Shown piece by piece: positions 4,673 to 47,049 of a DNA stretch of 64,000 bases. The stretch spans positions 84,488,644 through 84,552,643 of the forward strand of contig NC_088295.1 of assembly GCF_032854445.1 (NCBI RefSeq). Reading direction: 5' to 3'. The stretch comes from Liolophura sinensis (lineage: Eukaryota; Mollusca; Polyplacophora; Chitonida; Chitonidae). How positions within the stretch are numbered: position 1 is the first letter of the stretch; every line of letters begins with the position of its first letter. The notes under the pieces were generated by a model, which saw nothing but the letters and a program-made list of their open reading frames with translations, searched no databases and was not told the DNA's origin. The position numbers and the translations under genes are program-made.

Positions 4673-4948
4673 AGCGGGGCCTCCGTGGCTCAGTTGGTTA
4701 GCGCGCTAGCGCAGTGTAATGACCCAGGAGTCTCTCACCAATGCAGTCACTGTGAGTTCAAGTCCAGCTCATGCTGGCTTCCTCTCCGGCCGTACGTGGG
4801 AAGGTCTTGCAGCAACCTGCGGATGGTCGTGGGTTTCCCCCGGGCTCTGCCCGGTTTCCTCCCACCATAATGCTGTCCGCCGTCGTATAAGTGTAACAAG
4901 TGTAATTCTTGAGTACTGCGTAAAACACCAATCAAATAAATTATTTAT
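4673..4948 (+). mobile_element. SINE family 1, near full length
   Basis: Best family-1 copy in the window. A tRNA-like head has an A box TGGCTCAGTTGG (4686-4697) and a B box GTTCAAGTC (4756-4764). A core (CCGTACGTGGGAAGGTC, CGTGGGTTTCCCCCGGGC, CACCATAATGCTG) follows, ending in CGTAAAACACCAATCAAATAAAT. Short ORFs on both strands here are SINE-derived. Confidence 0.9.
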
Positions 4949-5870: not shown

Positions 5871-7660
5871 TCATGCAATGGCCTTAGGATGGTAGGACAA
5901 GCTGTTTTTGATCTCATCACTTAACATTCCCTTCAAGTGAAGGTGGATGAACGCTTTGGCGTGCTCGGTATGCGTCAGTAGACCCCTCTACAACAGAACA
6001 CACAAACCGCTACATCATTTCAAACAGCAGTAAGCGCATATGTTGCAGATTTTAGTGGGAAATATTACGCGATAAACCTCAACAACGAAACAGTTAGGAG
6101 ATTATTAGCTATGTACATGTATGTGGTTTGGAAGACAGGCCATATAGATAACTCTCAGAAATTTATTTGCATTAGATTCCTATTTTCATAAAACAATCAA
6201 GATAAGAAATTAGGTACATGCAGATCAATTCGTACCTTTGCCGGGACTTTGTTGTTGTTGTTAAGAATAATCATATTCGCCAATTAATTACCATACACAC
6301 AGTTTTATTTTGTTTGCTCGGTACAGAATTCGCCTACCTCTAATTTCAACAGCCCATCAGCAGTGTGTGCCTGCGTCACTTGTTCAGGGGTCATATGTTG
6401 CCCATAACAACCCGAGTCAGTCTTCATCACCAGTACATGCTGTTAATTGTAAAATGTATGTTGATGCCAGTGTAAACTATTTCCACACACGACACTTAAA
6501 ATACAATTACAGAAGTGAAAGGGACAAAGCTGGCGTTAATTTTGTACACGAAAGAAATGAAAATGAAATAATGTCCACAGAAGAAATTTTTGCACAAATA
6601 TTTCTCTGTTATCGTATTTGTCTGCAGTCTGTGTCTTCCAAACGGACAGACGTATGTAGTCTGCGTCGAATACTTCCATGTTAACCCAGTTGTCTTTAAC
6701 AGATCGGCCTTGTGAGTCAAATATTAAATATTGAGAAATATGAAACAACTATGTATTGGGCATGTGAAACTTACATGGCTGACGTCCATGAACCAAAGAG
6801 GATTGGAGCTGCTGAATGTGTGGTCTGTGATCGGGACAGGTGTAGAGTGCGGACCGTGTGTAGTGTGCGGGTGCTGGGTGTGCGGGTGTTGGGTGTGTGG
6901 GTGCTGAGTGTGTAAGCCGTGTGACGGGTGGGGGTGTTGGGTGTGCGTGGCGTGCGGGTGTTGGGTGTGCGTGGCGTGCGGGTGGTGTGTGTGACCCGCG
7001 GGGGTGGTTTTCTGGCTGTGAACCTGAAACACAAATATGATGCAGTATTCAATTGTTGCAGTAACAGGCTAACATTCTACAGGCCTCTCGCTGTTCAGTA
7101 GGCTAAAGCAAATGTTGTACAGATCCGTGAATCAGTTCGAGAGCCATTATATGACAGCTAAAACAAGTAATGAAATAAATAAATTTTTCATTTGCTAGTC
7201 TTGTTAATCTATTGTATATAATATGAATACATTATACAAAATTTTCAATGAACGCAAATATCCAGCCATGAAAATAAAATTATTTGTCTTCCATTCATAA
7301 ACATAACGCTTCCCCCCACCGCCACCTTGTCATAATATGATATATACAAGTACATGTTAGCGTAGAGTTCTAGTGGAGCACAATGATCCAGGAGCCTCTC
7401 ACCAATTGCTGTGTGTTTCAGCTCATGATGGCTTCGTCTCTTCTCTGCCGTGCGTGAGAAGGTCTGACAGCAACCTGCTGCTGGTCGTGGGTTTTACCCC
7501 GATCTCTGCTCAGTTTCATCCCATCATACTGCTAGCCACCTTCGTATAAGTGAAAAATTCTTGAGTACGACGTGAAACACCAATCAAATAAATAAACAAA
7601 CATAGATGTACATATACCTACCAGAGCCAAAGAAATACAGATCAAGGCAATAGTAAACAT
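5871..7660 (-). CDS. Secreted BRICHOS-like protein A (His-rich, frameshifted end)
   Basis: Exons on the minus strand: 7660-7622, 7023-6775, 6439-6338, 5987-5871, all phase 0 with GT-AG introns. They encode 168 aa. Exon 1 is a 13-residue signal-peptide start (MFTIALICISLAL). Exon 2 (residues 14-96) is a His/Thr/Pro low-complexity stretch with repeats of the type THTQHPHA, then DHTF..WFMD. Exon 3 (97-130) carries SGCY with Cys107, 14 residues after Asp93. Exon 4 (131-168) contains EIKN but then ends SLSYHPKAIA without the second Cys seen in B, C and E. Removing one T near 5899-5901 restores a Cys-Pro and the family ending EEH-stop (stop at 5863-5861), so the gene is probably a recent frameshift, a decaying copy or an assembly error. 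Function is unknown; BRICHOS domains in known proteins chaperone a secreted partner. Confidence 0.7.
7362..7602 (+). mobile_element. SINE family 1 in intron 1 of gene A
   Basis: Contains ATGATCCAGGAGCCTCTCACCAAT, a core with CGTGCGTGAGAAGGTCTG, and the tail CGTGAAACACCAATCAAATAAATAAACAAA. Inserted antisense to the gene, ending 20 bp downstream of exon 1. Confidence 0.85.
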
Positions 7661-8239
7661 CTTCAATCTTTGTCGCTTCAACAAATCAAAATTGGTAAAA
7701 TATGAAAACGGTTGCGGGTTTATATACTGGTATCATTCCTACGCTTTTGGATGTTATCTTTGAGAACATTACAGTCTGTGTTGGTGTGTGTTATATCTGC
7801 TTTGTCCAGAGATAGCTTTGTGATATCTTCACCGCCGCGAGTAGGCGTCCACGTAACCTAACTCACACCTGGTCTTTAATCAGGTTTCAATTTGATGTTC
7901 CAATTTCCATCTGTTTCCAAAGAAACTTTCCCTCACGTAGGATCTCTTGTACACATGTCACTTTTATCAGTAACTTTTCAATAGAGGTTGTAGGCCTCAA
8001 GACGATAAAATCTAAGGTGAACTTATGCTCTTGTGTTGTTCTGTGTGTTTCCGATTTTTTTTTTATCAATATTGCTTTTTTCACGAAATGTATGTTGACC
8101 AATCTGAGGATGTTCGTCAACTAGCCCTTCCGACGGTTTTTTATATCGTTTTTTTTTTTTATTAAATGAAGCACCATAAATAACACATGACATAAACTGT
8201 ACAGAGGTGTACCCAGTTCACATGCACTATCGACCATGT

Positions 8240-8460
8240 TGAGTGAGTGAGTGCTTGGGGTGTAACGTCGTACTTAACAATTTTTTCAATCATATGACGA
8301 CGAAGGAGTCCTTAGAGTGCATGTAAGGTGCCTCCTTGTAGCAGGACGAATTTCCACCGCTCTTTTATCTAGTGCTGGTTCGCTGAGACGCCTTACCGAA
8401 GGCAAGTAAACCGCCCCGCCCATTATACTGATATTGATACTATCCGGGACGGTCAGCCAT
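8240..8460 (-). mobile_element. SINE family 2, antisense, head truncated
   Basis: Starts with GAGTGAGTGAGTGCTTGGGG and follows the family-2 consensus (CATATGACGACGAAGGA, CACCGCTCTTTTATCTAGTG, CTTACCGAAGGCAAGTAA). It stops before the tRNA-like head that is complete in the copy at 48213. Confidence 0.85.
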
Positions 8461-8600
8461 GTTGAAGAAAAAGACTGTATTTTTGACATGATTTATTCAG
8501 CCTGTATATATGAACACACTAAGCTTATGGTTATTATGACTTGATAATACTTTGCAGTTTAAACAGCTGTTATATATAAGTGACACACACTTTTTTTTTT

Positions 8601-8700
8601 AATTGGTGTTTTATCGCGGAATTAAAGAATATTTCACTTATACCATGGCGGACACAATTATGGTGGGAGGAAACTTAGAAGAGCCCGGATGCAGCATGCT
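8601..8700 (-). mobile_element. SINE family 1 fragment, antisense
   Basis: AATTGGTGTTTTATCGCGG, AAGAATATTTCACTTATACC and ATTATGGTGGGAGGAAAC match the 3' half of family 1 in reverse. The sequence diverges after about 8690. Confidence 0.7.
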
Positions 8701-8879
8701 GCTAGCAGAAAGTTTATATCCACGGGCACTAATCAAGGGAGGTTTGTCAGGTATACCTGTTGAAGGTCTGTGGTTTACTGACGTCAGGCACCCTGGATTT
8801 CACTTCTATATAAACCTGTCTGTATGTGAAAAATTTTGTTAAACACCATTCAAAAAAATAAATAAAAAATAAATCAATA

Positions 8880-10180
8880 AATCGTAGACACACACATAGA
8901 CTAGCTGGAATCATATGCATTCCCAGAAATATTAGAAGATACTAAATTAATTTGCGATGCGCGGTATCATAGGACACATAAACTGATTCATGCCTCTGAC
9001 TAAGACTTAATATGAGGGTAAAGCATCGTTACTAGGTTAGTAATAAGAAAAAAACTATTTGTGCTTTCAAAAAACCAACACACGGAGGTGTCATTACACC
9101 AAGATATAGTACATATATGTACTATATATGCATGGCCCCAGGATCACGAAGCTGTCTTAGATCTAGGTCAGGCATAAGGGATTAAAGGATTAGTGTTCAG
9201 ATTTATCATTTATTTATAACTGGATAATCCTGTATGGATTGTCACACTGACATAATACATTTCTAAAAAGGGGCACATATAGCCGAAATATATGATACTC
9301 AAAGTCATATTATAATGAGGTTGATTTTAAGCATATTTTCCGACAACATGCAGTAATCTCCGTCAAAATATGTCATGTACCACCAGCCTATACCAGGTGA
9401 TAGGTCGAGCTTCACCGCTATCATTCAGTTGAAGAAAATCGGCCAAAGCGACAACATTAACCTGGAATTTCTCCAGGAAATGGTTTATTGCTCCGCACAC
9501 GGCTGTGATTAAATCAGATGACAACGCAGCATTCAAAGAAACTCTAACCTAAGTAACCAGTGATGTCTGATAAATTGAAACGTATATCAGTTGATCTAAT
9601 TTTCTTGAACCATAGTGATATGTGGTGTGTAAGTTGCTATTTTTAGGCATTTACATGAATTAAGTTTGACAAATTACATTATTATGTTAAAAAAATTTTG
9701 AAAAGACAGTTGCAAGCGCATGATATCCAATTAAGATCACATGTCTTTCTTTAAAAACGTTAAGTTCTTTAAAGTGGCTTCAACATCTTGGTTACCTAAT
9801 CCAGAAATAGCTCTCTCATTTGATAAGAGTGGACAATTACATAGCTTGGAAAAAAATCATCGGATATATGTGTACACGGAATCCTTTATCGATTTCCAAA
9901 TTGTTGTAACATATTAATGTTTAATGTAAGATTGATGAAACGCCTTATAATTAGCGGTCAGGTAGGACAGTTTAGCAAACAAAGCTTATAGAATGTCTAT
10001 CAGTGATTTGTACTTGCCTGTTTAGAGCAAAGCATTATTGCGATGCTTGGCCTTAACGTAGATGACCTGGCTTCTGCCATCCACTCTGTATATAGCAAAT
10101 TTTTATCTCTCCTTTCCCCTCTGTTTCAAAAACTTCAATTGTTGACTAAAGCGCAAGTTTGAACATCCACACAGATTGGA
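8880..10180. other. Intergenic between genes A and B, nothing recognised
   Basis: AT-rich, only short ORFs, no family-exon hallmarks (no SGCY or CPKLY-like coding) on either strand. Confidence 0.5.
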
Positions 10181-10182
10181 TT

Positions 10183-10265
10183 ATTCGATTGATCTTCCAC
10201 GCCGTACTCATGAAATATATTTCACTTAAACAATGGAGTTCAGCATTATGGTGAGAGGAAAAGTT
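10183..10265 (-). mobile_element. SINE family 1 fragment, antisense
   Basis: CGATTGATCTTCCACGCCGTACTCATGAAATATATTTCACTT.. then ATTATGGTGAGAGGAAAAG: a diverged 3' piece only. Confidence 0.55.
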
Positions 10266-10574
10266 TTCTGGCGAGAGAATTTGTAGGTTAACCAATATGA
10301 GCAAATGTGAAAGCGACGGAAATGGTTATGTCCTTCTTGAGTAACAGTCCATTCTAAACAGGTCGATAGTTTCTCCAAAAATTGAACAGAGCAGCACACT
10401 GACAGGAATTTATCAAAAACTCTTTAATTTCCAAATTTTAGAATTACTACTTAACAATCTGACAACAATGAGTATTTCGGTGTATGTACATATACTGTGC
10501 TTTCTTCTGCCGAAACTGAAGCATCAAACCGAAGCCACTAGACATGACACCTATCCAGTTACATTATAATGATA

Positions 10575-10712
10575 CCGGGCCAACAAGAGCGCCAAGCGAG
10601 AGAGCAACAAGTACCATTTTTAAAGTCTTTGGTATGACCTGATCCGGATTTGATCCCAGGTCTCCTAACTATGAGGCTGACGTGCCAACCATTAGGTCAA
10701 GAGCAAATACAG
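10575..10712 (-). mobile_element. tRNA-headed SINE family 3 fragment
   Basis: Shares ATTTTTAAAGTCTTTGGTATGAC, GATCC..GGTCTCC and AACCAT.AGG with the copy at 24225-24420. In reverse orientation these read as a tRNA-like A-box/B-box head, so it is a third SINE family, antisense here. Confidence 0.5.
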
Positions 10713-10749
10713 ACACCATCACACTTTAAAGAAGGGAACATTACATAGA

Positions 10750-10755
10750 TTTATT
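10750..10755 (-). terminator. Candidate polyadenylation signal for gene B
   Basis: AATAAA on the minus strand, about 80 bp after the gene B stop codon, a typical distance for a short 3' UTR. Confidence 0.45.
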
Positions 10756-10835
10756 ACATTTCCTGGACATCTCGTCCGTGTTAATTTTTATAAATTCAAA
10801 GAAAACACGAAACAAATGTCAGAGAAAGTATAAGT

Positions 10836-12691
10836 TTAGTGTTCTTTGTGATATACGTAGAGTTTGGGACAGTGGTTCTTGATTTCGGTGCTGTAATGAT
10901 CCGGATCTTGGGCCATGTGGAAATGGTGGGCATTGCGGATATGGTGAATAATGGTAGCCTGAAACATTATATTTCGTGTCGTTAATTAGTACCAAGGAAT
11001 CGAAAGAATCAGATCATCTTGTATTTAGTGTCCCATATATCAGTTAACATTTATTTTGTAAAAAAAATTCAGTCTTTTCACTTAATTAGCTGATTTAAAT
11101 GAAAGTCTAATCAGTTATTCCAACGTCGATATTTTGGAAACGACTGCAGTGTTAGCAACAGTATATCAGTGTGAGTAACTGGTTTATCTTTTACGGTATT
11201 ATACGAAAGTATTACCTCGATGTGAAGCAGCTTCTCCATGTCGCTAATCTCCTCTACCTGCTTATCGTTCAGGTGAGTGACGTAACAACCAGAAGACGAC
11301 TTAAGTATCATGGCTTTCTGAGAACAGGAAAAGTGCAAAATTGTTGACCATATATGAATATATGAATCTTGAAATTATTCCATACAGGAGCACCAGCATA
11401 CCTTACTTTAAAACCTGCTTCAGATCGGTATGTGATCTTACTCAGTGTTAAGACGCTTGTCTTTCAGTTGTTATAGGTAACAGGAAGTGTGAGTTCAATC
11501 CCGATCTGAATTGGCTCGGGAATTTGTAGATTCCGCCGGCCTCATTCTTCATGGGGCCTTTCATACAGTCGCTAGGTTAAGATTAATTGTCACCCACGAA
11601 TATCACATGCGTATATCTATATACGCCACACACTGGAACGTTAGTCAATAACTTGCTGAAGGTCAGAGGCTTTCATCATTTATAACACTGATCCAAATCG
11701 TATAAATTAAAATGTTTGTAAATATGGCGTTAAGCAATAATCAAATAAATAAATAAATAAAACCGGCTTCGTCCAGTGATATGAAACAAATAAATACAAA
11801 AATATTAACGGTTTTTTTGATCTATATTTTGATTCATTTTTTATTTTGTTTGATTGGTGTTTAACGCCGCACTCAAGAATATTTCACGTATACGACGGCG
11901 GGCAAAATTATGGTGGGGGTTAACTGGGTAAGGCAAGGGTTGAATCGTCGACCATCCACAGGCTGCTGTCAGACCCTCCCACCGGAGAGGAAGCCAGCAT
12001 GGGCTGGACTCGAACTCACCACGACTGCGTTAGTGAGAGGCTACACGATCACTGTGCTACAATACAACACTTAGCAATAGGCTACGGAGAACTTGGAAAG
12101 AGTTTCTTGATGCTGTACGGACAGTCTGCACACTTACGTTAGGAAGGTCCTTGTAGAACACAATTTTGGTGTCCTTGAACGTATGATCCACCAAAGGTAG
12201 GTCGGTGGAGTGCGCTGCGTGGATATGGTGTGCATGGGTGGTGGCATCCTGGCTCAACACCTGAGGGGAAATTCAATCGATAAAATTAATTCTTACCGTT
12301 GGCTGTTTCAAAGTCTATATTTTGATAACGTTTGACTGGAACTGCTCCACTCTTTAACCCCAAATGCAGAATAACGAAGTAAAGCGGCCCATTGTACAGG
12401 GTAACAATGGTAACTTAACAACGTAACGTTTTGTGAACGAGGCCTCGGACATTTAATTCTGCCTTCAGCATAATATTATAGGGTGAAGAGTATTGCCTTT
12501 TCTCAGATTCAATAAAAATCATTGTTTCTGCTTTGTCTTTTGATGAACCAAAATAATTTTACTCTGTAACGGTTGTTTTAGAAAACGTTCCTGCTGATTT
12601 TGATCGAAAGCCACAGAACAAAGGAGTGACATTAAAGGTTGTTATATCTTACCAGGGCAGCAAGGCTGGAGAATACCAACAGGCCGAACAT
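10836..12691 (-). CDS. Secreted BRICHOS-like protein B
   Basis: Four phase-0 exons on the minus strand: 12691-12653, 12260-12138, 11317-11216, 10958-10836, with clean GT-AG borders. They give 128 aa ending KEH-stop. Residues 1-13 (MFGLLVFSSLAAL) start a signal peptide; cleavage is likely around VLSQ. Residues 18-35 are short and His-rich. The domain follows: FYKD with Asp51, then strand-like KAMILK, SGCY with Cys65, DMEKLLHIE, a His-rich helix-like IIHHIRNAHHFH, and Cys118 in CPKLYVY. One Asp and two Cys in this order, with Asp 14 residues before Cys1 and Cys1-Cys2 spacing of 53, fit the BRICHOS pattern; family membership is inferred. Very close to C, and the cleanest gene in the cluster. Function unknown. 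Confidence 0.8.
11420..11762 (+). mobile_element. SINE of a separate family in intron 2 of gene B
   Basis: tRNA-like head with B box GTTCAATCC (11493-11501), a distinct body (GGGCCTTTCATACAGTCGCTAGG, GGTCAGAGGCTTTCATCA) and the tail ATGGCGTTAAGCAATAATCAAATAAATAAATAAATA. The body does not match families 1 or 2, though the tail resembles family 1. It lies between exons 2 and 3 of gene B. Confidence 0.65.
11846..12060 (-). mobile_element. SINE family 1, antisense, in intron 2 of gene B
   Basis: TTTGATTGGTGTTTAACGCCG, CACTCAAGAATATTTCACG, GGAGAGGAAGCCAGCATGGG, CGAACTCACCACGACTGCG, ending next to the exon 2 donor side. Nearly complete except for the A-box end. Confidence 0.85.
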
Positions 12692-13732
12692 GCTGACGTT
12701 ATACTGGAGATGTGATGAATAGAACTGCTAAATCTTTTATAGATTACGGTCTTATTTAATTGACCAATGTCGTTGGTTTTTCCACTAACAGCAACAACGC
12801 AATTAGGGCTGGACCTATCCTTATTGATATTTTTTTTTGTTTTAGTCCACATAGGTCATAGATTCGGGAAAATCTGCATATGGCCAGCATAGTGTTTGAA
12901 CGGGGCGGTATCATACCGAACACGAGGGTGGGCACGAGCAGCCGGGATTGGGAATATTATGGACATGAGGGTCTTGTATCTGTGTGATATCTTTTCATCT
13001 GTGTTTATGTGTCTGTGTCTAAGAGGTATCCTCCATCTGCATCTACAATGTCTGGTAATAATGAGACAAACTCAAAACATGATGCTGTGCGAATGGCAAG
13101 TTCGAACATAAAACAAAACCGTTTCTGTCAATCATATAATCTGTTTTGAATATCAGAGACTGTCCTCCAGCTGTTCATTTCCCATAGACATACAGATAAA
13201 ACGCGACCTTTCTTCCCCACGGATGGCATCTTCATGGACAGGACACTTGCACGTGTCCCTCTTACCACGATTTTAATGTTCGCCTTGAGCATTCCTTGCG
13301 TATTTTCAACAACACTGAAGACTGTTGACCGCTTCCCTTTGCATGATTCCCTCATAATTTCGTACTTTATTTTATACTTTTTCTTACTTCTTTGGTGCTC
13401 TGAGTTATACGTCGTTTTGGGAATTGACCGTGCGATTATAGGCTCGCAACGTTCATTTTAGTTGACGGCTGGAATACGAATGTTTGTTTCGACGCATAGA
13501 TATGAAGAGCTACCTTAGTGTCAAGATCTTGATGTCTTAAAAGCAAGGCTAAATGACAAGAATCGAGATAGTCTGAATTCCTTTCTTAGTTTGTAAAAAA
13601 ACTGAGTTATATTAAGGCTGTCGTGCAAGAACGCTTGACGTCAACCATCACTGACGTATAGTCACAAATGACGTTGTATTTTCAAACGTGCATGACGTCA
13701 TTCCTGTGTAACTGCCTCATTCTGTTAGTTAT

Positions 13733-14110
13733 ATGGTCACTCAGTGATAGGACACCCAAACATATGGTGTCATTAATCCTCATATTGGGCGAGGCGTCAG
13801 ACAAGCGCAGTATGAGGATTTATATATTTATATCCATCGTGTATTTGCGTATCCTATCACTGATTCACCATGTAACGAATTCATCCTGCAAAGACCCATC
13901 AATTGAGTGCAGAAGACCGATGTATGGGTGAATCCCTTCAGCGTTGTGACCATCGTTGGACCTCAACAAAGGGACGTATAACCTACTCAGCAAACCGATT
14001 TGACGTCGCCTGCAAGATTCGACAATATATCTGTACTCCACGTGACAGTTGCTGTCCAATGAAAGGCAGAGAATTTTTGTCTGACGAGGGAAAAGACATC
14101 ATATCTGCCT
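13733..14110 (+). mobile_element. MITE-like element, copy 1
   Basis: The first part is a hairpin (TGGTCACTCAGTGATAGGA ... TCCTATCACTGATTCACCA, about 13733-13872). The following part (CATCCTGCAAAGACCC.., GGGACGTATAACCTACTCAGCA.., GTTGCTGTCCAATGAAA) matches the reverse complement of 29868-30161. No ORF of note; the short ORFs here are incidental. Confidence 0.6.
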
Positions 14111-14639
14111 GATTCATGGTCACATAAGGAATATTGTCACGTCACATCATTAAAATTTTACGAACACGAGGATTTTGTTTTCAGGACTGTTCACTTATAG
14201 GGATTAGATACTAATATTCATCGTCATTCTTCGTTTTGCTAGCTATATTTCATACAGTATCATTTCTATCTGTTTGTTATTTCCACCTGGTCTTTCTTGG
14301 GACTGAAATAGCTCTTTAAATTATTGATCTATTCGCCACATAAGGTTTGCATGGCCCAATGTTCCTAGATTCATTGTTAATTAGTCTCAACCTATGCGTC
14401 ACACTGTGATTTCGTCTTGACTCCCAATGTTAACCTGTCGGTAGTGCCCGTTGTCCCTGTCCAAAATATTTTGATAGACCGCAATGAGAACTTTAAATGA
14501 CTTCGAATAGTATTGATACTCGATATATCACGTACTGGAATACAGCGTCAATCAGTCTATTTAAAAAAAAATCTGTTCAAAAGGATGAAAGACATTCATA
14601 GATAATATGCTCTGTGTAAGGAAGATATGCGTGGAGTTG

Positions 14640-15900
14640 GATATGGAGGTTGAGTACACTTGACGTCAAAAGTGTGACATCTCAAAGATAGTGGCGCCAT
14701 TCCTCCAGCAGACACATAGAGGGTCAGTACACAGCTGAAATACAGTGGGGTCATTCCTCCAGCAGACACATAGAGGGTCAGTACACAGCTGAAATCCAGT
14801 GGGGCCATTCCTCCAGCAGACACATAGAGGGTCAGTACACAGCTGAAATCCAGTGGCGCCATTCCTCCAGCAGACACATAGAGGGTCAGTACACAGCTGA
14901 AATACAGTGGGGTCATTCCTCCAGCAGACACATAGAGGGTCAGTACACAGCTGACATCTAGTGGGGCCATTCCTTCAGCAGACACATAGAGGGTCAGTAC
15001 ACAGCTGAAATCCAGTGAGACCATTCCTCCAGCAGACACATAGAGGGTCAGTACACAGCTGAAATCCAGTGGGGCCATTCCTTCAGCAGACACATAGAGG
15101 GTCAGTACACAGCTGAAATCCAGTGGGGCCATTCCTTCAGCAGACACATAGAGGGTCAGTGCACAGCTGAAATCCAGTGGGGCCATTCCTTCAGCAGACA
15201 CATAGAGGGTCAGTACACAGCTGAAATCCAGTGGGGCCATTCCTTCAGCAGACACATAGAGGGTCAGTATGCTGTACAGTTGACGTCAAGCTGCCACAGC
15301 TGAAAGTCAATGGGGCCATTCCTCCAGCAGAGATAAATGTTTCATGGAAGGTCAGTGTACTGAACAACTGGCGTCAAAGCTGTAACATCTCATGGCCATT
15401 AGGGTCATTCATCCAGTTGACAGCTGAATTTATTTATTTGGTTGGTGTTTTACGCCTATTCAAGAATATTTCACTTGGTCGGCATTATGGTGGGGGGAAA
15501 CCGGACAGAGGCCGGTGGATATCCACAACCATACGTTGCTGTCGGGAACTCACAGGGATCGCACTGATCAGAGACTCCTGGGTCATTGCGCTGCGCCGGC
15601 GTGCTAATCACCTCGGCCAAAGAGTCTCCCTGAAATTCAGTGGGGCCATTAGTCCAGCAGACACAAATATTCCATGGAGGGTCAGTATACTGTACAGTTG
15701 ACGTCAAGCTGTGGCAGCCGAAAACCAATGGGGCCATTCCTCCACAGACACAAATGTTCCATGGAAGGTCAGTGTACTCTACGCTTGACGTCAAAACTGT
15801 GACAGCAGAAAGCCAATGATGCCATTCCTGAAGCACATACACGTTTCAAGGAGGGTCAGTATACAGTACAGCTGACGTCAAAACTGTGACGGTTCGAGGT
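14640..15900. repeat. 54-bp minisatellite with a longer ancestral unit
   Basis: From about 14690 to 15275 there are about 11 copies of a 54-bp unit (CATTCCTCCAGCAGACACAT, AGAGGGTCAGTACACAGCTG, AAATCCAGTGGGGC). Flanking units at 14640-14690 and 15276-15900 are about 85-90 bp, with an extra TGTACAGTTGACGTCAAAACTGTGAC segment, so the 54-bp form looks like a deletion derivative that then amplified. Since 54 is a multiple of three, a 219-aa frame of 18-residue repeats stays open on the minus strand; I see no promoter, signal peptide or splice context and treat it as non-coding. Confidence 0.85.
15428..15620 (-). mobile_element. SINE family 1 inserted in the minisatellite
   Basis: TTTGGTTGGTGTTTTACGCC, AAGAATATTTCACTTGG, CATTATGGTGGGGGGAAACC, GGGTCATTGCGCTGCGCCGGCG, in reverse orientation. 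Repeat sequence continues on both sides, so the SINE arrived after the array formed. Confidence 0.85.
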
Positions 15901-16862
15901 TAGTGAATCCATTCTTATTGTTGACAAAGGTGCTTTATGGCGGACCATTTAAGGTTTTACTCTTCCATCCATGAAACTTACCGTTAAGAGAAAAATTATC
16001 TTCAGTAGGGTATTAAACAATAGTCAAATAAATAACTAAATTATTCAGATGCGTGTACTTTAACAGACAAGACGAGGATTTGCCCTGATGTAGATACCCC
16101 GGGTTTTACATGGAGGCTCACAATAGTTCACCTCAAAACCTGAAAGTCATTCTTCAAGCAAACATAAATATTACCGATTTGTAGTGTGTTTATACAAATT
16201 ATAATGGGAAGAAAAAAAAACTATAGGTGTAGAACTGAAATGTCTGAACGCCATTAACCCTATAGATACAGGATCTCAACTGGTGTGCTGAATCACAATT
16301 TGTTCGCTTAAGGTCTGTAACGTTCGTCATTTTCGAACTGTATCTAATACCGCCTAACCTGGGGCTAGGGGCCGTAAAGGCATCCATGCTCATAACATCT
16401 GCATGATGCCTTTATGAACAGTTGCAATCAAAGCACGACTGAGATACCTTGTTTAATTGTTATTTGACCTGGAACTCATTCATGGACTACGAATTTGAAC
16501 TTTGATATGGAATTCATGCCTGGAATATCCACTATCTGCCCGGCATCATTGAAAGCTGAAGATCGCCTCTCTCTTGTGTGTTACCGGCTGTATTTCCTAT
16601 TTGTATAATTTCTTACATACCTTTGTCTTTGGGAGCTAGCGTTAAACGTTGTTTTAGAAATGGATCTTGCGATTATCGACTTGGAACGCCCTTTACGGAC
16701 TACGAATGGTATACGAATATCGGATATGACGCTTATATTTGTCATTTTCTGTCTGAAGACGACAAATATTGTCTTCAAATCATTCAGTTAACTTTGTTGT
16801 CGGTGCTTACAGGACGTGAGAAAATAAAACCAAGACTACACGGGAGCCACACTGAAGTGGTT

Positions 16863-18738
16863 TTAATGTTCTTTGTGATGGGCATAGAGTTTGGGACAAC
16901 TGGTCTGGATTTCACTGCTGTATTGATCTGGGTTGTCAGCCATGTGGAAGTGGTGGGCGGTCCTGATATGGTGAATAATCTCAGCCTGGAACATGCAAAT
17001 AGTGTACAGCAATATTTCCCTTTACAATAAAACATACATACAAGAGTTTGTGGGGTTAAAAGGAATACAATGGCAAGGTAGTTAAATTTTTATTATATTC
17101 GGTTGGAAAACCACCATGCCTTGCTAATAATTTGGAGAAATACAGTTGGACATTTTACGCTTTGCAGGGAATATGCCCTACAGAGAGAAAATCTGTTCAC
17201 AACATATTATTTCATCTCGGTTTAATTTCGGGTATATCTAGCTAAATTTACACGAAATTAGAGAATGAATTTAGTGAAAACATGAAATCTCAGAATAACC
17301 GTGGGGAAGCGGTCCATAAAGAGCGGGAATTTTGATTTGGGATCACGGCATAAATATGTTTCAGTCAATACGAAAGTCCGATGCTATATACACTGCGACA
17401 AGTTACGAAAATATGTATATACCAGTGACTATAGAAGACACAGTGGTTGAGCTATGAGCTATTGAGCAATGATTAAAATGTTGCCAAAGTATTGTAAGCC
17501 CTACCTCAATGCGAAGTAGTTTCTCCGTGTCGTTAATGTCCTGAAGCTGCCTATCATCCAACTGTGTGACGTAACAGCCCGAGTCCGACTTCAGAATAAT
17601 GGCCCTCTAAGGAGAGGTTAATTGCACAAGATATATCATAAGCACCATGGTAATACACACGCACATATTTTGTCAACTGCATGTCAAACGTGTTCTGTTA
17701 AATGTTGGGTTAAAGTTTGATATAGCGATTTTGTTTGGTATCAAGAAACATTTGCCTTTTACCTGGTTAAAGAATCCAAAATACAAACTTCTGTACATGT
17801 TGCAAGCAAGAAAACGTTTAGTCGATTTGCTAAGAGGAATTAAATCACACATAGGCTTATCAAAATACATGTAAGAACACGCTTTTCTCCGAAACATGGA
17901 CTTCAGTTGTTAAGAAAAGTTAAGAATTTGTTCTCTCTGCGGTTAGAAATGTCCCTAATAATAGTTAAAATTGTGAGCACTGAATTATAATAAGTTAGAA
18001 TAGATAGAAATAGAATAGAATATTTCTAGGTCTAACCTTTTGATAATTACACTAACATGGGTACTTACGTTTGGAAGGTCTTTGTAGAATGCGATGTTAG
18101 CATCACTAAACGTGTGATCGATTTCAGGCGGGGGAGAGTGGTCATTTGGGTGAGGCGGGTGGGGTTCGGTAGGGTGTGGCGGGTGAGGGTGGTCGGTAGG
18201 ATGGGACGGAGGCGTGGGGGGAGTTTCGTGAATCTGGCATAACACCTGGAATGGAAATGATTCATGCAACATGAAACAATTTTGTCTCTGTATGTATTCT
18301 GAAGTGTTCTTGAAAGTTAGAGGGCATATATCATCTGACGTTTAGACAATAATATCTGCCACAGTGATACTCTTCAAAAGTTGTGGTCGTGTTTTCGAAT
18401 CCAGCTCTCTCTGCTTCGAGAGAGACTTTTTGCCTTTTGTCACATGTCTGACAAATGGCGATGATTAACTACAGGCAAACCGGTTTATCAGTGTATATCT
18501 ATGTTAATGCCACGAGGAAACGCTATACAGACATTACAGCACCATAGAATGTATCTTACAAACCCTGTAACCCAATATCACTATCTAACCAGAGTTATAA
18601 CTGTATATTCGGATCTCAACCTCATTCCAACAAATATCTCGTGTAGTTTGTATACCGTATATAGTGTTGATTTACAAAAGGGCGTATGTTTTTACTTACC
18701 AGGGATGCTAAACTGATAAATACAAGGAGACCAAACAT
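16863..18738 (-). CDS. Secreted BRICHOS-like protein C (His/Pro-rich linker)
   Basis: Four phase-0 exons on the minus strand: 18738-18700, 18245-18069, 17606-17505, 16985-16863; 146 aa. Residues 1-13 (MFGLLVFISLASL) nearly equal those of B. Exon 2 (14-72) replaces B's short linker with a Pro/His-rich run (HPTDHPHPPHPTEPHPPHP) before IDHTFSDANIAFYKDLPN. The domain has Asp69, Cys83 in SGCY and Cys136 in SCPKLY, and ends KEH-stop. Exons 1, 3 and 4 have exactly the same lengths as in B (39, 102, 123 nt), whereas exon 2 differs (177 versus 123 nt), so the duplicated genes diverge mainly in the linker. Residues such as IIHHIRTAHHFHMA are almost unchanged from B, suggesting selection on the domain. 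BRICHOS assignment is inferred from the Asp/Cys/Cys layout; function unknown. Confidence 0.8.
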
Positions 18739-21700: not shown

Positions 21701-24180
21701 CCATGCCATAAATTAAGTCAGCAGACATGATCCGGTCACATTATCCAGACTCCACACCAACCTGTACATTATATATCTTTAATCTACCAATCCAAAAAGC
21801 ATCAAGTACCAAATTTTTGTATGCCTAGTGTGATCATGTACTTACTACAGGGTCACTTGGAGCACTCGGCCATCACAGCAATAACACAGAAACTGGGTAC
21901 AAGTTACAATAATCTACCAATGAAAGCTCACTGCTCATTGATTGTTCTCTAGTACATCTGATACTGTAGCTATACGAGAGGGAAACCAGTGATCGCTGGG
22001 GAAACTACTCACTTTTAAGACAAGCAAGTGACAGGAAAACTTTCTCACATGTGTCTTCAACTTCCAAGGGAGACAGCCACATTGGTTATTGGCAAGTGGG
22101 AAAATAGAGCAAGCGACGTACAAAGGTCACTAGCATCCTTGTAAATTGCATTCTCTCAGCGGTCAATAGGTCTGCAATGTAAACAACGTCGATTTGACGT
22201 CTTCACTTATACTAGGCGTTTTGTCACTGAAAACCTCTTTACAAATGATTTCTGTTTCTTTCTTTCGACAACGTACGTGGTTATCTGTTATAATTTATTT
22301 TTGTGAAAACCAATTTAAAATTTTACCATTCATTATTGTTTTTTATAACAATGAAAAATAATTCCTTCAACGGGCATTAACTGAGCATTGTAATCTTGAA
22401 AACAACATCAAAATAACAAATAAAATGTTGAGAGTTTTTTCACCGTCATTTAGGTCTGGTAAATGGTGAACGCCAAGTGGTCAGTCCAGGAAAAAAAAAA
22501 TTGTTCATGTACGTGTACACGGTGGTAATATATCATTAAATGCAATGGGTAGCTTATAACAGTAATGAGTTTTAATTAGTATATTAATTCACGCTGTGGT
22601 CAAATATGACTGCAGTGACCTAGTAAATAAATAATCTGATGATAGAGTACGGGCCAAGCCAGGTAAATTTACACCTACACAAAATTGTGAATTTACTATA
22701 TTTTAGAGTAATATTACACATCATAATGTAAATTAACACCTGAAGGTATTGTCAGCACAAAACAGTCCTATGTGGTGTGAATATCTACATTGTGAATATA
22801 CAGACGTAACGTAGAACTGCAAATTTTGTAAATATACATGGTCCAGTTAATATACACAAAAAGGAAATGAAACAACACCCTTAAACACTGCAAATCTTTT
22901 CACAGCAGCAACGATTGTGACAGTTAACAGTATTATTTACTGTACTTCAACAGACTTTTTTCACAGTGTAGGGTACCGCAAACACTCGGGCATGTAGAGC
23001 GTTGCTCCCTCGGGCTCCAATTGTGCTTCCGAAAATATATCTAAATTGTATGAATAAAATAAACAATACTGTTACGTAAATCTCGCCAAACAAAAGTTCT
23101 TCTTCGGTTTTACCAACCATATAAATCATTAATCTTGGTCACAGTGAATTGTGGATTCTGTACATAATCTACAACCGGTAAAACTTGCAAAGAAAACGCG
23201 TGCCGAAACCTCAAACGGGGGGTGGGGGGGGGGGGAGATCTGACCGTATAGCACGTAAATCGGCAATGGAAGTCCGCTAACGTTTCCAGGATAAGAGTGG
23301 AAGAGTGGAAAATCTGTTCGTCGAATAGCTCAGTTTTAGTCATAATTGTGGAAGATAGATGCAGATATGCCTATTCTTGCGTCGTGCCTTACAAAAAGAC
23401 ACATGGCGAGAGCCTCAGCGTTGACATATCGATCTTCCATATATAACCGACCTGGCGCAAAATGCACGTAGTACACTTAATTATATTCACGATTTACCAG
23501 CAATTAGAAAACCTCAGTGGGAAGCCAATATTCCCTCCATATCAAAAGTATGAGATAACGCGCAATACAATGACCAATCAAAACCCGTAGGAACGAAAAA
23601 ATTTAATGTCGCAAGAAGTCATCTACCATAGAATCCATGCTAACAGCACCAAAATTGTCAGCATGTGGTTTTCTTCACACAGGATGACTTTCGATAAAAA
23701 AAAAGACCTCTAAAAGGTTTCCAGATGGCCGATTGCTTTTGGCAAACAGCCTAAATTGAAAATATCTATCGGCCACCCACCCAATCCCTCTTCTAGTTAA
23801 GTAATTATGTCAAGGCTACTTCCATGATATGTATGTATGTCAGCTATATATCCCAGTATGCCTCTGAAGAATACCCATACAAGCCCACCGACTCAAATCT
23901 TAGCCAAACATAATCCTTACATGTGACAGATGTATACTAAAATAACTGTAACACTGCTTATACCTTAAAGTTAAACTACATTTACAGTACAAAAAGCTAG
24001 CTTGATGCGACCAATGCCAGTCACATGTCTTCTATGTGAAAAGTTAAAACATTTCTCTGGCTATTCCTTTTGAAGGTTCTTCGGCTCACGTCTCAGATGC
24101 AATGTTGAAATGTTTTCACTCTTTTCCATCTTACAAACCTCGACAAATACTCGTTGCCAAATTGTTTAGGTCCTTGTCTT
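18739..24180. other. Long gene-free interval between genes C and D
   Basis: No exon with family hallmarks and no other coding pattern recognised on either strand. Similar motifs recur near 19140 and 19478 (TTTCACCGGTT.CGTGTGA.CATTTGTCAGATA), suggesting a duplicated segment of about 350 bp. The part near 22650-22970 (AAATTTACACC, TAAATTAACACC, CACAGTGTAG) has the look of a degraded MITE. A G-homopolymer run lies at 23217-23235. Confidence 0.45.
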
Positions 24181-24224
24181 TCAATTATGCCGTATCGGTC
24201 AAATGGCTATAACCTGGTTCTAAT

Positions 24225-24420
24225 ACCAGCCTTGGACAAGGAACATTCGAATGATTTTTCTCGGTGCCTGAGTGACAAGAAAGGGTCAATGAATGAATTC
24301 TTGGGATTTTAGTGAGATCAACAAGCAACATTTTTAAAGTCTTAGGTATGACTAGATCCCGGGTCTCCCGACTTTGAATCAGACGCTCTAACCATGAGGC
24401 CAACGAAGCGGCCCGAAGAC
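24225..24420 (-). mobile_element. tRNA-headed SINE family 3, antisense
   Basis: Read in reverse it starts with GGCCTCATGGTTAGAGCGTC, a tRNA-like A-box region, then GGGAGACCCGGGATCTAGTC and CCTAAGACTTTAAAAATG. Related to the fragment at 10575-10712. Confidence 0.55.
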
Positions 24421-24559
24421 ATTGCTATTCTCTAGTGTAGTCTTACTTGACCTTTGTGGGCCATCTCTTACTCTCCATCAATATAACATATGTGTCACGT
24501 GGAAATGTTCGGCAGTATAAACCGCAAAAAGTCGGTTGCTTACCCCGAACACTCTGGTT

Positions 24560-24640
24560 TCTTTTATCTTTACACTACATGCCGTCGTATAAGTGAAAAT
24601 TCTTGACTACGGCGTTAAACGTTAAAAACGAAAGTAAATA
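24560..24640 (+). mobile_element. SINE family 1 tail fragment
   Basis: GCCGTCGTATAAGTGAAAATTCTTGACTACGGCGTTAAACG is the family-1 3' end; the head is lost. Confidence 0.55.
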
Positions 24641-25178
24641 AAAACAACAAACCTATGTTATATATGTTTTATGGCTGAAGAGTCTTGACACCACCAAGGG
24701 CCTCTGAAAAACCCGCTGATCAGCATAGAATGATCCTATTCATTTCATTACAGCTGACTGAACTGACCTGATCAACGAACCGAATATCCAAATTGCTTTC
24801 GTATAACCGCAGACGAGTTATTAATTCAAACAGAATGACCAGAATCACCACTGTCTCGCTATAAATGCTTTAACTCGCCAGTATCGAATCTGACTAAACT
24901 GTCAGGTGTACAAGACAAATAGGGGCAAAATTACATGCAACCTTAATTTAATGGGAAAAGTTACCACAAACATTCACCTGGCGCCAATAACACAATTTAA
25001 TGTCACCATGCAAAAATGAACAGATAATTATCGAATTATCAAACGATGCACAGAGGATTATAACATGGATTACTACTTGACACAGACACAAACACTGAGC
25101 ATATAAATGTCTAGTTATTTTAATACTCTTTGTTATAGTTTAAGACAATTTGTCGCTGTTAGCACCACCAAGAGGCTT

Positions 25179-25268
25179 TGTTTTATTTATTTGTTTGATT
25201 GGTGTTTTACGCCATCCTCAAGAATACCTCACTTCTGCGACGGGGGTCAGCTTATTGTAGGAGGAACC
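25179..25268 (-). mobile_element. SINE family 1 fragment just after orphan exon D
   Basis: TTTATTTATTTGTTTGATTGGTGTTTTACGCC and AAGAATACCTCACTTC in reverse orientation. It begins 12 bp past the stop codon of orphan exon D. On the minus strand its tail supplies AATAAA, so it could act as that exon's polyadenylation signal. Confidence 0.7.
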
Positions 25269-25279
25269 AAGGCCTTGGT

Positions 25280-25402
25280 TTAATGCTCTTTCTGATAAGA
25301 GTACAGTTTTGGACAGCTGGTCGTTATCTCATTGCTATCCTGGTCTGGATCAGGAGCCATGTGCACGTGGCGCAACTGACGTAAAGGATGGATTATACCG
25401 CT
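25280..25402 (-). pseudogene. Orphan last exon of a BRICHOS-like gene (D)
   Basis: A 123-nt open segment with an acceptor (TTTTTTCAG) at its start and a stop at its end. It encodes 40 residues aligned end to end with exon 4 of B and C: GIIHPLR, VHMAPDPDQDS, SCPKLYSYQKEH. The second family Cys is intact. No matching exons 1-3 lie between it and gene E (25403-26974). It is therefore either the survivor of a deleted paralogue or an alternative last exon for gene E, whose exon 3 ends in the same phase 0. Its sequence resembles B and C much more than E's own last exon. The frame is undamaged, so the pseudogene label is tentative. Confidence 0.6.
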
Positions 25403-25894
25403 CTGAAAAAATGAGAAAAACAGGAACATATCTTTTATATCTCAATCAAACAATTTGAATGTAATCGCATTTTAAATCAGTGCCATATGAAGATGCTTTC
25501 GGGTAATTCACGCTACATTTCACGTCATTTAAGGGTGGCAGGGCCCACTTCTATAAGTCATATTAGAGGAATGCGGTAATATCAGCCCATGTTGACAGGA
25601 CTCCAATTCGTCTTACTCACTATTCTTCTGTCAGGGCTACGTGTAACCTCTCTGGACCAGTGCTTCTTATTCATATATAACATGACAATGAAAAAACCAT
25701 CACCCTGCGGGCTCATTATGAGCACAGTTGACTAGACTAGACTAGACGGTGGCTGCGTGTCTTAAGCTGTTGTACATCTAGAGCTACATTATATGGCTAA
25801 CTGAGTTGTAATATGTTTCTCATAAACTTCTGATGTGTACATCTGGGAGTATACACTCAGTACAGGTACATAGCTCCTGATCTCGAGGATTGGC

Positions 25895-25980
25895 GCGTAA
25901 TTTGATTGTTTTAACGCCAGATTCAAGAATGTTCCGCTTACACGATGGGGGTCAGTTCCATGGGTGGAGAATGTGGAGTG
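25895..25980 (-). mobile_element. SINE family 1 fragment, antisense
   Basis: TTTGATTGTTTTAACGCCAG, TTCAAGAATGTTCCGCTTACACGATGG: a diverged 3' end of family 1. Confidence 0.5.
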
Positions 25981-26291
25981 TAAATAACTGATCCATAGCA
26001 AGGTATACTAACGTACTTTTCACGCAAGTGTGATTTAAATGCTTGTACGCTTTATTTGTGGAAGACAAGATAATGAACGTAAGAGTACGCAAACAGCCGT
26101 CGACCGTTTATGGTCAGCAATCCCCCAAGTACAATGAAAGCATTGTTATCTAGAATTTCCCTGTCACAGCTTGGGATTGAACCCACATCTCGTGCGCCTC
26201 GTGATGGGATTTATTTATTTATTATAGGGAAACCTATGCGAAACTGAAAGTGTATCCACATCCGATTGCCGAGAAGCATATACAGATATGT

Positions 26292-26503
26292 ATTTATTTA
26301 TTTGATTGGTGTTTTAGGTCGTGCTAAAGAAAACATCACTTCTACGACGTCTGTCAGCATTATGGTGGGGAGAAACCGGGCGGAGCCCGAGGGATACTCG
26401 CGAACATCAGCAGGTTGCTTCCAGGCTTGCCCATGGTCTAGTGGGAGGCCCATGGATCACTATGCTTCACTGTCACCCTAACCATTAAGCCACGGAGGCC
26501 TCC
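26292..26503 (-). mobile_element. SINE family 1, antisense
   Basis: TATTTATTTGATTGGTGTTTTAGG, CAGCATTATGGTGGGGAGAAACCGGGC and AACCATTAAGCCACGGAGGCCTCC. Both ends are preserved; the middle is partly deleted. Confidence 0.8.
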
Positions 26504-26544
26504 TTCCTCGTAACTGGAGTCACACACCTTACCAGTGGGTTAAA

Positions 26545-26785
26545 GGGCGAGGGGGCTAGCACACAATGACCCTGGAGCCTCCCACCAATGTGGTGGCTGT
26601 GAGTTCAAGTCCACCTCATTCTGGCTTCCTATCCGTACGTGGGAAGGTCTTTCAACAACCTGCGGATAGTCGTGGGAGTCCCCCTCCCCCCCCCCCCCCC
26701 CCCCACCATAATGCTGGCCACCGTCGTATAAATAAAATATTCTTCAGTACGGCGCTAAACACCATTCCAATAAATAAATAAATAC
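26545..26785 (+). mobile_element. SINE family 1 with internal poly-C run
   Basis: CACAATGACCCTGGAGCCTCCCACCAATGTGGTGGCTGTGAGTTCAAGTCC, then a C-rich run at 26683-26704, CACCATAATGCTGGCCACCGTCGTATAA and the tail CACCATTCCAATAAATAAATAAATA. It faces the copy at 26292-26503. Confidence 0.8.
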
Positions 26786-26974
26786 CAGTACACTAGGCCT
26801 CATAATGCTTTCGAAGGGCAGAACAATCCCTGAAGATTTTTTAACCATCTACACCTAGTTATGGTGCATGTATGGTTTTCAACATATTAAGACGACGCTT
26901 GAGACGACCAGTCAACAAACCTGTACCGAGGAATACACAAATTCACGATGAAACCATTTTAAAGGAGGTACACT

Positions 26975-29255
26975 TTATTCCCAGTGATACAAATGCGTGT
27001 GTCTACAAGCCGACTGGATATGGGAGCTGAAGTGAGATAGGGCATTCAGGGCAACGACCTGGAGGAAAGTGGTAGCTGTGCGCACGGCTCGTATCTGCTG
27101 AAGCTGAAACCAGAACAAAAATTCACTGGCAGATAAAACCCACAATAACTTAGTGCAGGGTGACATGACGTGGTTCATCGCAAAATCTAAAACACAAGGA
27201 ATAAATATGACTTGACGTAGACCTACATGTGTGCATACTTAGCTCCGAAACGACCAGGAATTGAACCTCGTTTTCTAGCTCAAGCTGTTACAACATTATG
27301 CGATGAGTCGAAGGCTTAGCAAAGTTTATGAGCAAAATATACAATTAATATAGTACCTTTTCCTAAAAAATGGCGACGCGGGTTCAAGCTGGATAGGCCG
27401 GTGTTCTCTTGAAATACATGAGTACTACGTTATGCGAGTCCGAGCATAAATCGTCAACGTAAAGGCAGGAAATAGACTACACAGCTGGGTTCCGATTAGA
27501 CACCAAACGATATACAGCCAAACTCGTCACGGAGATTTATACCTACCTCTAAATTTTTGAGAACCTCGCCCTCAGCTGTGGACAAGTCCTGCTTCACGTG
27601 CTCAATGTAACAGCCCGACGAAGTCTTCATGACCAGAGCGTGCTATAAAAATACATTAAGTCCAGGTATATTGAATCCCATGACAAAATGAATATATATT
27701 ATAACTGTACAGGTATACATAGCTGTCGAAGTTCAAAAACTCTTAGTTGAAGGACGAACACATTAATCTGACACTAATGATTTAGCTAAAACATGCAAAG
27801 CGATCATAGGCGCGCATTTTACAATCTGTTTCATATGGTACTTCGGTATTTTTGAACAGCTACGGTAGAAACTTGACAATATTCAATGGACAGTCAAAAA
27901 TAAATAATAAATATCCAACCGGGACAACGGCATCAGTATGCAAGGTCTACTGCCGTTCGCCAGCGTAAAGACGATATGTTTGTTGAAACGTTTTGCTTGA
28001 AAATGTTTCGAAATCAGAGGGAATCTTTCCCCTGTCGTACATATAGCATGTTTTTACTGTACCACTGTGAAACATTATTGAGTTTTGAAGAAAAGTACAC
28101 TGTATACACGTAGTCGGATTTAAACCTTGGACTTTTTTACTTTTGAATGTGACCAATTTGAGAAAGAAATCAATAATATGACATGTTTGTTAAAAGAATC
28201 AAATATGGCCTCTTCCCACTTGCCCAATGGATTCTGTTAAGACGCCAGTCCACGCTCTACGCGACACGAGCACTATTCGTTTCTCACAGATCCGGTATAT
28301 TTAATAAACTGACAACTGTAACAAACGGTCCCAAGTGTTGTATCTCACATGTCGTCACATACGTTTCACATACATGAAACTGCAATTAAAAACATTAAGC
28401 ATATTGCAAAAATTAAACGTCATTTCTTTAAGTTGCATGGAATTCCACATGACTGACTGATTAACTGATACTTAAGGCCTAAAGTACAAGTACCATGTGG
28501 GCATCGGTGAAGAAGACTGGAAACGCGACAAGCCCCCTGATGAAGTGGCCTGTCCCCATTTGAGCATCCGTGAAGAAGATGGGTAAAGTCCCCCTCTCCC
28601 TGACTTACCATATTAACAGCCGTGAAGATGGTCGGTTAAGTCTCCCACTCCCTGAAGAAGATGGATTAGGTGTTCAGCCCGGCCTCTGAGTTACCATGAG
28701 CATTCATAACGAATGCGGGTGAAGTTAGACGCTCCCGGACCTACTGTAAGCATCGGTGAAGAACAGGGATGCAGTCAGCCGTTCCCCGACTTACCATATG
28801 GGCATCCGTGAAGAAGATGGGTGAAGTGAGGTCTGGGGTGTGAGCCACAACCTTCGTGTGCCCGGGTAAATGACCATGACCCGTCCCTCCTCCGGTACCT
28901 TCTTGACCCTGTATAGTCGAAATAAACATCAAGAGAAAGGGTTGAAGCAACTTGCAGCCGTTTTAGAGCCGCAGCGGTAGCTATTGACGTATAGATTATT
29001 AAACAACACTGGCACTGAGAAACACAATTTTAAAATGCGTTTATCAGCAGATGCGCAAGACATACCTAAACTCCAGAGAATTTAACATTTTTAGAAACTT
29101 TTGGAAAATTATGAGCAGCGTAGTTATCAACTACACGATTAATCACCAGCGGTCTATAAGTAGTTGATTATTACATGTACATACAGGTACTTGTTCACAG
29201 CAAAACTCACCAAAACAACCGCACTCAGCAGACAAATGAACACAGCGACCTTCAT
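26975..29255 (-). CDS. Secreted BRICHOS-like protein E (diverged member)
   Basis: Four phase-0 exons on the minus strand: 29255-29211, 28908-28795, 27642-27547, 27103-26975; 127 aa. An upstream in-frame ATG at 29270 would add five residues. Residues 1-15 (MKVAVFICLLSAVVL) form a signal peptide. Exon 2 (16-53) is Gly/His-rich (GTGGGTGHGHLPGH) and ends SPIFFTDAHM with Asp50. Exon 3 (54-85, two codons shorter than in A-C) has SGCY with Cys64, again 14 residues after the Asp. Exon 4 (86-127) has Cys118 (Cys-Cys spacing 54) and ends ACRHTHLYHWE. The B/C motif CPKLY is absent, so E is the most diverged member. Minus-strand AATAAA overlaps the stop codon (26979-26974). The 3' end of exon 2 is duplicated several times in intron 2. 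Function unknown. Confidence 0.7.
28490..28840 (-). repeat. Degenerate tandem copies of the exon 2 end and splice donor
   Basis: The end of gene E exon 2 (TTCTTCACGGATGCCCATATG plus donor GTAAGT at about 28790-28815) recurs, decayed, near 28743-28770, 28690-28725, 28610-28640, 28560-28585 and 28495-28525. Spacing is irregular, about 45-80 bp. Several copies keep a donor-like GTAAG or GTAA; the copy near 28500 still encodes VFFTDAHM followed by GTAC. Confidence 0.6.
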
Positions 29256-29867
29256 GACGAGTAACTGCATGACGCGGATACGAGGCCGTGGACTATTAAT
29301 AATATGCCTATTTTTTACAGTATAGGAGTGACCAACAGGGCTGGTATAGGGCCTATATATGTATATCTCTATCTTTGGGTAGAGATTGCAAACTGACAAC
29401 TATCATGATAAGAAAGTGCTGTGTAACACGGGGGTCAACGTGAAACGAAGAATTGTCACAATGAAATCAGATTGTATATCGAAAGTATAGCACGGTAGAC
29501 ATGCATTCAAGGTGTACAAAGTCAACTGGTACAATTCCGTTGACGCAAAGCCGCAAGCAGCATCGTTGCGTTCCTTAAGGTACAGCATGTAGCCTACATA
29601 TACGTAATTTACCCTATGAAACGGGTTATGGACAAAACTATAGGCAATCCTCAGCATACCTGTTGCCTCACTGGTTTGTTGAATAAGCGTTCAATTCTGG
29701 CTGTACACACTGAATGTGCACGACGCTAGCTCAAGTAATGTTTCCATCAGATTTAGATCGCCAATGCCCTTGATGCGGAAAAGATGGACATTATAAAGAT
29801 AGACACTTCCCCCAATCTGTACTACATGTACCAGTATATTATATTGTGGTGTGTTTGTACATACCTT

Positions 29868-46927: not shown

Positions 46928-47049
46928 ACAGCATAGCCTCAATGGCAGTGGGCTAGACATATAAGCCCGGAGTTGATCATTTAAACAGATGTCCACTGGT
47001 GTTCGATGTATGTGGACGAAGTTGATCGCCACTAACAGGACCTCCAGTG

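Follow-up and report, generated by a model that had tools for sequence, protein, structure and literature searches.

A 64,000-nucleotide stretch of DNA (hereafter, the window) from Liolophura sinensis, a chiton (grazing marine mollusc), carries, together with its immediate left flank, a tandem cluster of genes coding for small secreted proteins. Based on Pfam matches, predicted fold and intron positions taken together, these proteins are very likely members of the BRICHOS superfamily, and all three lines of evidence support the BRICHOS-like assignment proposed in an earlier sequence-only reading of the window. Their architecture (signal peptide, His/Pro tail, terminal BRICHOS domain and no internal client) seems to be new; the BRICHOS fold itself is known. 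Research on BRICHOS domains has dealt with them as anti-amyloid chaperones, each of which is generally believed to guard a segment of its own precursor. A secreted BRICHOS protein without an internal client would permit a direct test of the domain as a free extracellular chaperone in nature, and the cluster would offer small natural client-free BRICHOS domains for structural work.

The gene models were derived from genomic DNA of contig C1. On the minus strand, A, B, C and E were each reconstructed as a four-exon gene with GT-AG ends, and every intron is in phase 0. About six related genes stand in the tandem order F, A, B, C, D, E, where D is an orphan exon and F is a fifth complete gene, located just left of the window (C1:84486365-84487948) by an exon hidden Markov model (HMM) search. 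The sequence-only reading had described the shared four-exon, all-phase-0 plan, and every exon was found where it had been proposed. The exon lengths it gave are correct as well: in both B and C, exon 1 has 39 nt and exon 4 has 123 nt, and a length of 102 nt for exon 3 is common to A, B and C. In E, exon 3 has 96 nt. The spacings given in that reading, which we re-measured, are likewise right. The conserved Asp lies exactly 14 residues before the first cysteine (Cys1) in A, B, C and E, and also in F, while the distance from Cys1 to the second cysteine (Cys2) is 53 residues in B and C and 54 in E. Cys2 is found in B, C, D, E and F, with the stop codon 9-11 residues beyond it in each; the chains of B, C, D and F close with a common terminal EH. 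The orphan exon, recognized as such in the earlier reading, is of the exon 4 type seen in B and C. Only this exon of D aligns to B and C, and no partner exon was found nearby.

Genome-wide searches, which covered 609,464,459 bases in 632 contigs, revealed no second site for the family; the weak matches that the cluster proteins have elsewhere, for example at C13:20.56 Mb, come from repeats or chance. Over the domain, the ratio of nonsynonymous to synonymous substitution rates (dN/dS) is ~0.13 for B-C and ~0.24 for A-F. These values and the confinement of the family to a single locus indicate that the cluster is more than chance, and the BRICHOS domain appears to be under purifying selection in its genes. 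The duplications differ in age, since F and A align across introns and flanks, whereas the alignment of B and C is confined to exons. A, B and F have a TATA-like box 50-73 nt 5' of the ATG, and C has a weaker one; when 40-nt stretches of the region were drawn at random, 5.7% contained such a box. Relative to F, gene A has one additional nucleotide in a run of A's directly before the Cys2 codon and therefore lacks Cys2, although its original frame is still F-like. We rejected the loss of Cys2 as new biology, because another frame still matches F; the shift may represent an allele, decay or a homopolymer assembly error.

Searches with the joined proteins gave the Pfam BRICHOS family (PF04089) as the top match for B (6.3e-4), C (0.013) and E (0.17). 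Two further Pfam matches of B, Clavanin and ApaLI, were dismissed as chance. Neither C by itself nor a profile of the four proteins matched any PDB sequence. Structures were predicted with AlphaFold2 using an alignment of the four window proteins only. In the model of C, the predicted local distance difference test (pLDDT) score is about 85-94 over residues 61-140, and the predicted order of elements is that of BRICHOS: strands 1-4, helix 1, helix 2 bearing Cys2 and a final strand 5. The Asp is at the end of strand 65-69, which agrees with the place of the conserved BRICHOS Asp at the end of strand 2, and Cys1 (strand 82-87) and Cys2 (helix 130-135) occupy the positions of the Cys1-Cys2 disulphide, which in BRICHOS joins strand 4 to helix 2, the bond itself being predicted. 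When the C model was compared with 641 structures by VIA-align, 2yad ranked first (Z 5.9, root-mean-square deviation 2.7, 67 residues) and 8ovi second (Z 4.5), followed by a row with Z 3.0. Provided that the alignment of C and 2yad is ungapped near its ends (61-97, 142-197), Asp69 and Cys134 would correspond to D105 and C189 of proSP-C. The E model has the same BRICHOS order minus strand 5, at low confidence, and again 2yad came first (Z 4.8) and 8ovi second (Z 3.5, tied with an unrelated row). These two are the sole BRICHOS entries among the matches listed, and they take the top two places for both models. A search for the BRICHOS sheet in predicted structures, which the sequence-only reading had suggested as a check, turned out in its favour for C.

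Since the VIA-align Z values are moderate, intron positions were used as an independent test. The same genome contains four undoubted BRICHOS genes, with Pfam scores (30.9 to 57.5 bits) above the cut-off: an ITM2-like gene at C12:15.77 Mb, two genes close together at C13:27.48 and 27.52 Mb, and one at C8:17.25 Mb. None of the papers found describes these four genes. In all of them, of the ITM2/Bri type and others alike, a phase-0 intron lies at Asp+3, where the Cys1 exon starts, and a second phase-0 intron follows helix 1, leaving a Cys1 exon of 33-37 residues. All five cluster genes have the same phase-0 intron at Asp+3 and the same second intron, with a Cys1 exon of 32-34 residues. The four genes differ from the cluster in passing the Pfam cut-off and in their Asp-Cys1 spacing of 16 rather than 14 residues, and those on C8 and C13, unlike the cluster genes, encode an apparent membrane-anchor segment upstream.

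Several observations weigh against the assignment. The PF04089 scores of B (20.3 bits), C (16.1) and E (12.5) are all below the cut-off of 25, and neither A nor F has any Pfam match whatever. The profile check proposed in the earlier reading held as far as the best match of B, C and E is concerned, but not at the level of the cut-off and not for A. When profiles of the cluster and of the chiton's four other BRICHOS genes, each built from few sequences, were compared by hhalign, the match was weak (P 0.034, probability 1.5%) and confined to the CY region. VIA-align Z values below 8 can, on their own, reflect a mere common arrangement. The E model has a pLDDT of 55 and, having been built from the same alignment as C, is not fully independent. 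No Foldseek match was significant; bacterial B-subunits headed its list with a probability of about 0.2 and were put down to chance. Finally, donor sites are clear in the C8 and C12 genes, but each C13 gene offered two candidates, of which the better was taken. Nevertheless, as the predicted fold and the gene structure point the same way, we read the Pfam scores as a limit of sensitivity for a domain that is short and divergent; the cut-off is a threshold of recognition and not a feature of the structure.

Each cluster protein starts with a predicted signal peptide, recognized by a 16-residue hydrophobic start with V at -3 and S/C/G at -1, followed by an invariant Gln. Between the signal peptide and the domain lies a His/Pro/Gly-rich tail of 20-63 residues (15-32% His), which is different in every copy and in A and C contains short tandem repeats. 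The mature proteins have a net charge of -1 to -11. In a hydropathy scan no 19-residue stretch of the mature chains has a mean above 1.07, and no transmembrane segment was detected. The loop between helix 1 and helix 2 is short and polar. There is no aggregation-prone region C-terminal to the domain, as the conserved stop coincides with the end of strand 5; this supports the earlier proposal that the proteins have no C-terminal client. The contrast then drawn with the usual C-terminal client stands insofar as the chain stops shortly past Cys2, but the arrangement is not unprecedented, a parallel with proSP-C having been missed. The other proposal of that reading, that the low-complexity linker could be the client, did not hold up well. 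Its composition gives no support for a classic hydrophobic client, and no dibasic (convertase) site is present between tail and domain in the cluster proteins. Being hydrophilic and without such a site, the tail is a poor client and probably is not released by a convertase. A separate protein, the other client suggested there, is a possibility.

The closest solved fold to the C model, proSP-C (2yad), has its BRICHOS domain at the extreme C-terminus, ending about 8 residues past Cys2, compared with 9-11 in the cluster. It differs in being a membrane protein with a transmembrane client, whereas in the chiton proteins a short signal peptide is not accompanied by any transmembrane segment, and in its Asp-Cys1 distance (16 versus 14). 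The Cys1-Cys2 distance of the cluster is presumably also shorter than that of proSP-C. The gastrokines GKN1 and GKN2 resemble the cluster in being secreted BRICHOS proteins; they have a C-terminal segment beyond the domain and no His-rich tail. According to a 2023 review, BRICHOS proproteins bear a C-terminal beta-prone domain, with proSP-C so far the sole exception (PMC10182729); the client in that case is the transmembrane helix of proSP-C itself, which precedes the domain (PMC10182729, PMC9714404). The helix 1-helix 2 loop of proSP-C is polar, as it is in the cluster (PMC10167226). No joint mention of BRICHOS and chitons was found in the papers searched.

As the chiton proteins seem to be without the client segment of nearly every other BRICHOS protein, they may chaperone other proteins. 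We give slightly less than an even chance to the possibility that the cluster codes for secreted stand-alone BRICHOS chaperones acting in trans. Such a protein would be released whole and serve, extracellularly or in the secretory pathway, as a chaperone for some other beta-prone secreted protein. Other BRICHOS domains act on foreign clients, and the conserved Asp sets their pH dependence (PMC9627735); it might do the same here. Activity against amorphous aggregation depends on hydrophobic motifs within the loop that joins helix 1 and helix 2 (PMC10167226). Because this loop is short and polar in the cluster, its BRICHOS domains are predicted to have anti-amyloid activity of the proSP-C type rather than heat-shock-like activity. 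The His-rich tail could bind metal, mineral or matrix as a tether, or add a second pH switch. A tentative and less probable extension is that the proteins are naturally client-less, tandem-duplicated secreted BRICHOS chaperones whose most variable part, the His/Pro tail, aims or regulates them. If true, the cluster would be a second exception to the BRICHOS plan besides proSP-C, one in which evolution has made the domain an extracellular chaperone that works in trans. The functional proposals, action in trans included, are inferences.

The annelid precursors of antimicrobial peptides (AMPs) arenicin, alvinellacin and nicomicin are built similarly, being secreted proteins with a signal peptide, a linker and a BRICHOS domain. 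Alvinellacin precursors are encoded by a multigene family, part of which is arranged in tandem (PMC5431198, PMC6780910), and a 2019 review describes the annelid BRICHOS-AMP family as limited to marine worms. It might be argued that the chiton genes code for inverted defence precursors: the variable His-rich tail would then be the active peptide, either antimicrobial or metal-sequestering, with BRICHOS as its chaperone or carrier, the part that the domain plays for the C-terminal antimicrobial peptides of marine worms. The tandem copies and the combination of a conserved domain with a fast-changing segment do resemble the annelid family (PMC5431198, PMC6780910), and the His content and the variable length of the tails point in the same direction. 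However, the annelid precursors end in a Cys-containing beta-hairpin peptide, whereas the cluster proteins have no residues beyond strand 5. The missing dibasic site and the non-cationic nature of the mature proteins also speak against this explanation, which we consider unlikely. Just as unlikely is a role in matrix or mineral handling, in which the tail would bind metal (iron, zinc or copper) in the teeth, girdle or mucus, and the domain would keep matrix proteins soluble until deposition. The tails are strongly His-rich, but His-rich stretches are common in secreted proteins and a study of the Cryptochiton radula does not mention BRICHOS.

Stand-alone action of the chiton domains would also be called into question by a missed exon, if splicing past exon 4 added a C-terminal client in some transcripts. 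In annelid BRICHOS precursors the peptide is indeed on the last exon (PMC5431198). However, B, C, D and F share a conserved stop and terminal EH, AATAAA follows 80-88 nt beyond the stop in B and D, and non-exon DNA (~150 nt past exon 4 was queried) is not conserved between B, C and D save for interspersed repeats, which makes this explanation improbable. Least probable of all is that the proteins have an unrelated small secreted fold with a chance SGCY motif and two cysteines: the sub-threshold Pfam scores and weak hhalign and Foldseek results would fit, but BRICHOS structures are top-ranked for the models of two members (C and E) and the intron position and phase relative to the Asp are identical in four true BRICHOS genes.

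Table 1. Exons of the BRICHOS-like cluster (window positions; all on the minus strand)
Feature	Position	Strand	Description
Gene A exon 1	7622..7660	-	Signal peptide, MFTIALICISLAL; GT donor, phase 0; TATA-like TATATAAA 66 nt upstream
Gene A exon 2	6775..7023	-	His/Pro/Thr repeat tail and BRICHOS start with conserved Asp; tandem repeats of 15 and 24 nt
Gene A exon 3	6338..6439	-	Cys1 exon, TDSGCY, 102 nt
Gene A exon 4	5871..5987	-	One-base frameshift before Cys2 codon relative to F (DNA alignment with F)
Gene B exon 1	12653..12691	-	Signal peptide; TATA-like TATAAAAG at -50
Gene B exon 2	12138..12260	-	His-rich tail, DHTF...FYKDLPN
Gene B exon 3	11216..11317	-	Cys1 exon, SSSGCYV
Gene B exon 4	10836..10958	-	Helices and Cys2, NHCPKLYVYHKEH stop
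Gene C exon 1	18700..18738	-	Signal peptide
Gene C exon 2	18069..18245	-	Pro/His-rich tail, DHTF...FYKDLPN
Gene C exon 3	17505..17606	-	Cys1 exon, SDSGCYV; modelled
Gene C exon 4	16863..16985	-	Cys2, TSCPKLYAHHKEH stop; modelled
Orphan exon 4 (D)	25280..25402	-	TSCPKLYSYQKEH stop, AG acceptor
Gene E exon 1	29211..29255	-	Signal peptide
Gene E exon 2	28795..28908	-	Gly/His tail, IFFTDAHM
Gene E exon 3	27547..27642	-	Cys1 exon, TSSGCYI
Gene E exon 4	26975..27103	-	Cys2, QSACRHTHLYHWE stop; modelled

Intron 2 of E (window 28480-28830, minus strand) holds several degenerate tandem copies of the exon-2 end with its donor (TTCTTCACGGATGCCCATATG GTAAGTC), including an exon-2 HMM match of 1.5e-6 at 28482-28604; these could be mini-exons or decayed duplicates. 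Between B and C there is a 54-bp tandem repeat (10.7 copies, 95% match, window 14690-15269), with an 87-bp array nearby (15644-15890). An interspersed element of ~220 bp, probably a short interspersed nuclear element (SINE), occurs in both orientations in many places (e.g. 4718-4943, 7379-7600, 11836-12071 and 26562-26783); copies adjoin the orphan exon and are also present inside introns of A and B. To the right of the cluster, an exon coding for a PEHE domain (33086-33847, minus strand, Pfam 1.2e-9) points to a KANSL1 or MSL1-type gene, to which the long exons at 41914-47062 perhaps belong. Further on, exons at 56016-60600 (minus strand) code for the N-terminal, middle and C-terminal domains of an acyl-CoA dehydrogenase, as identified by Pfam.

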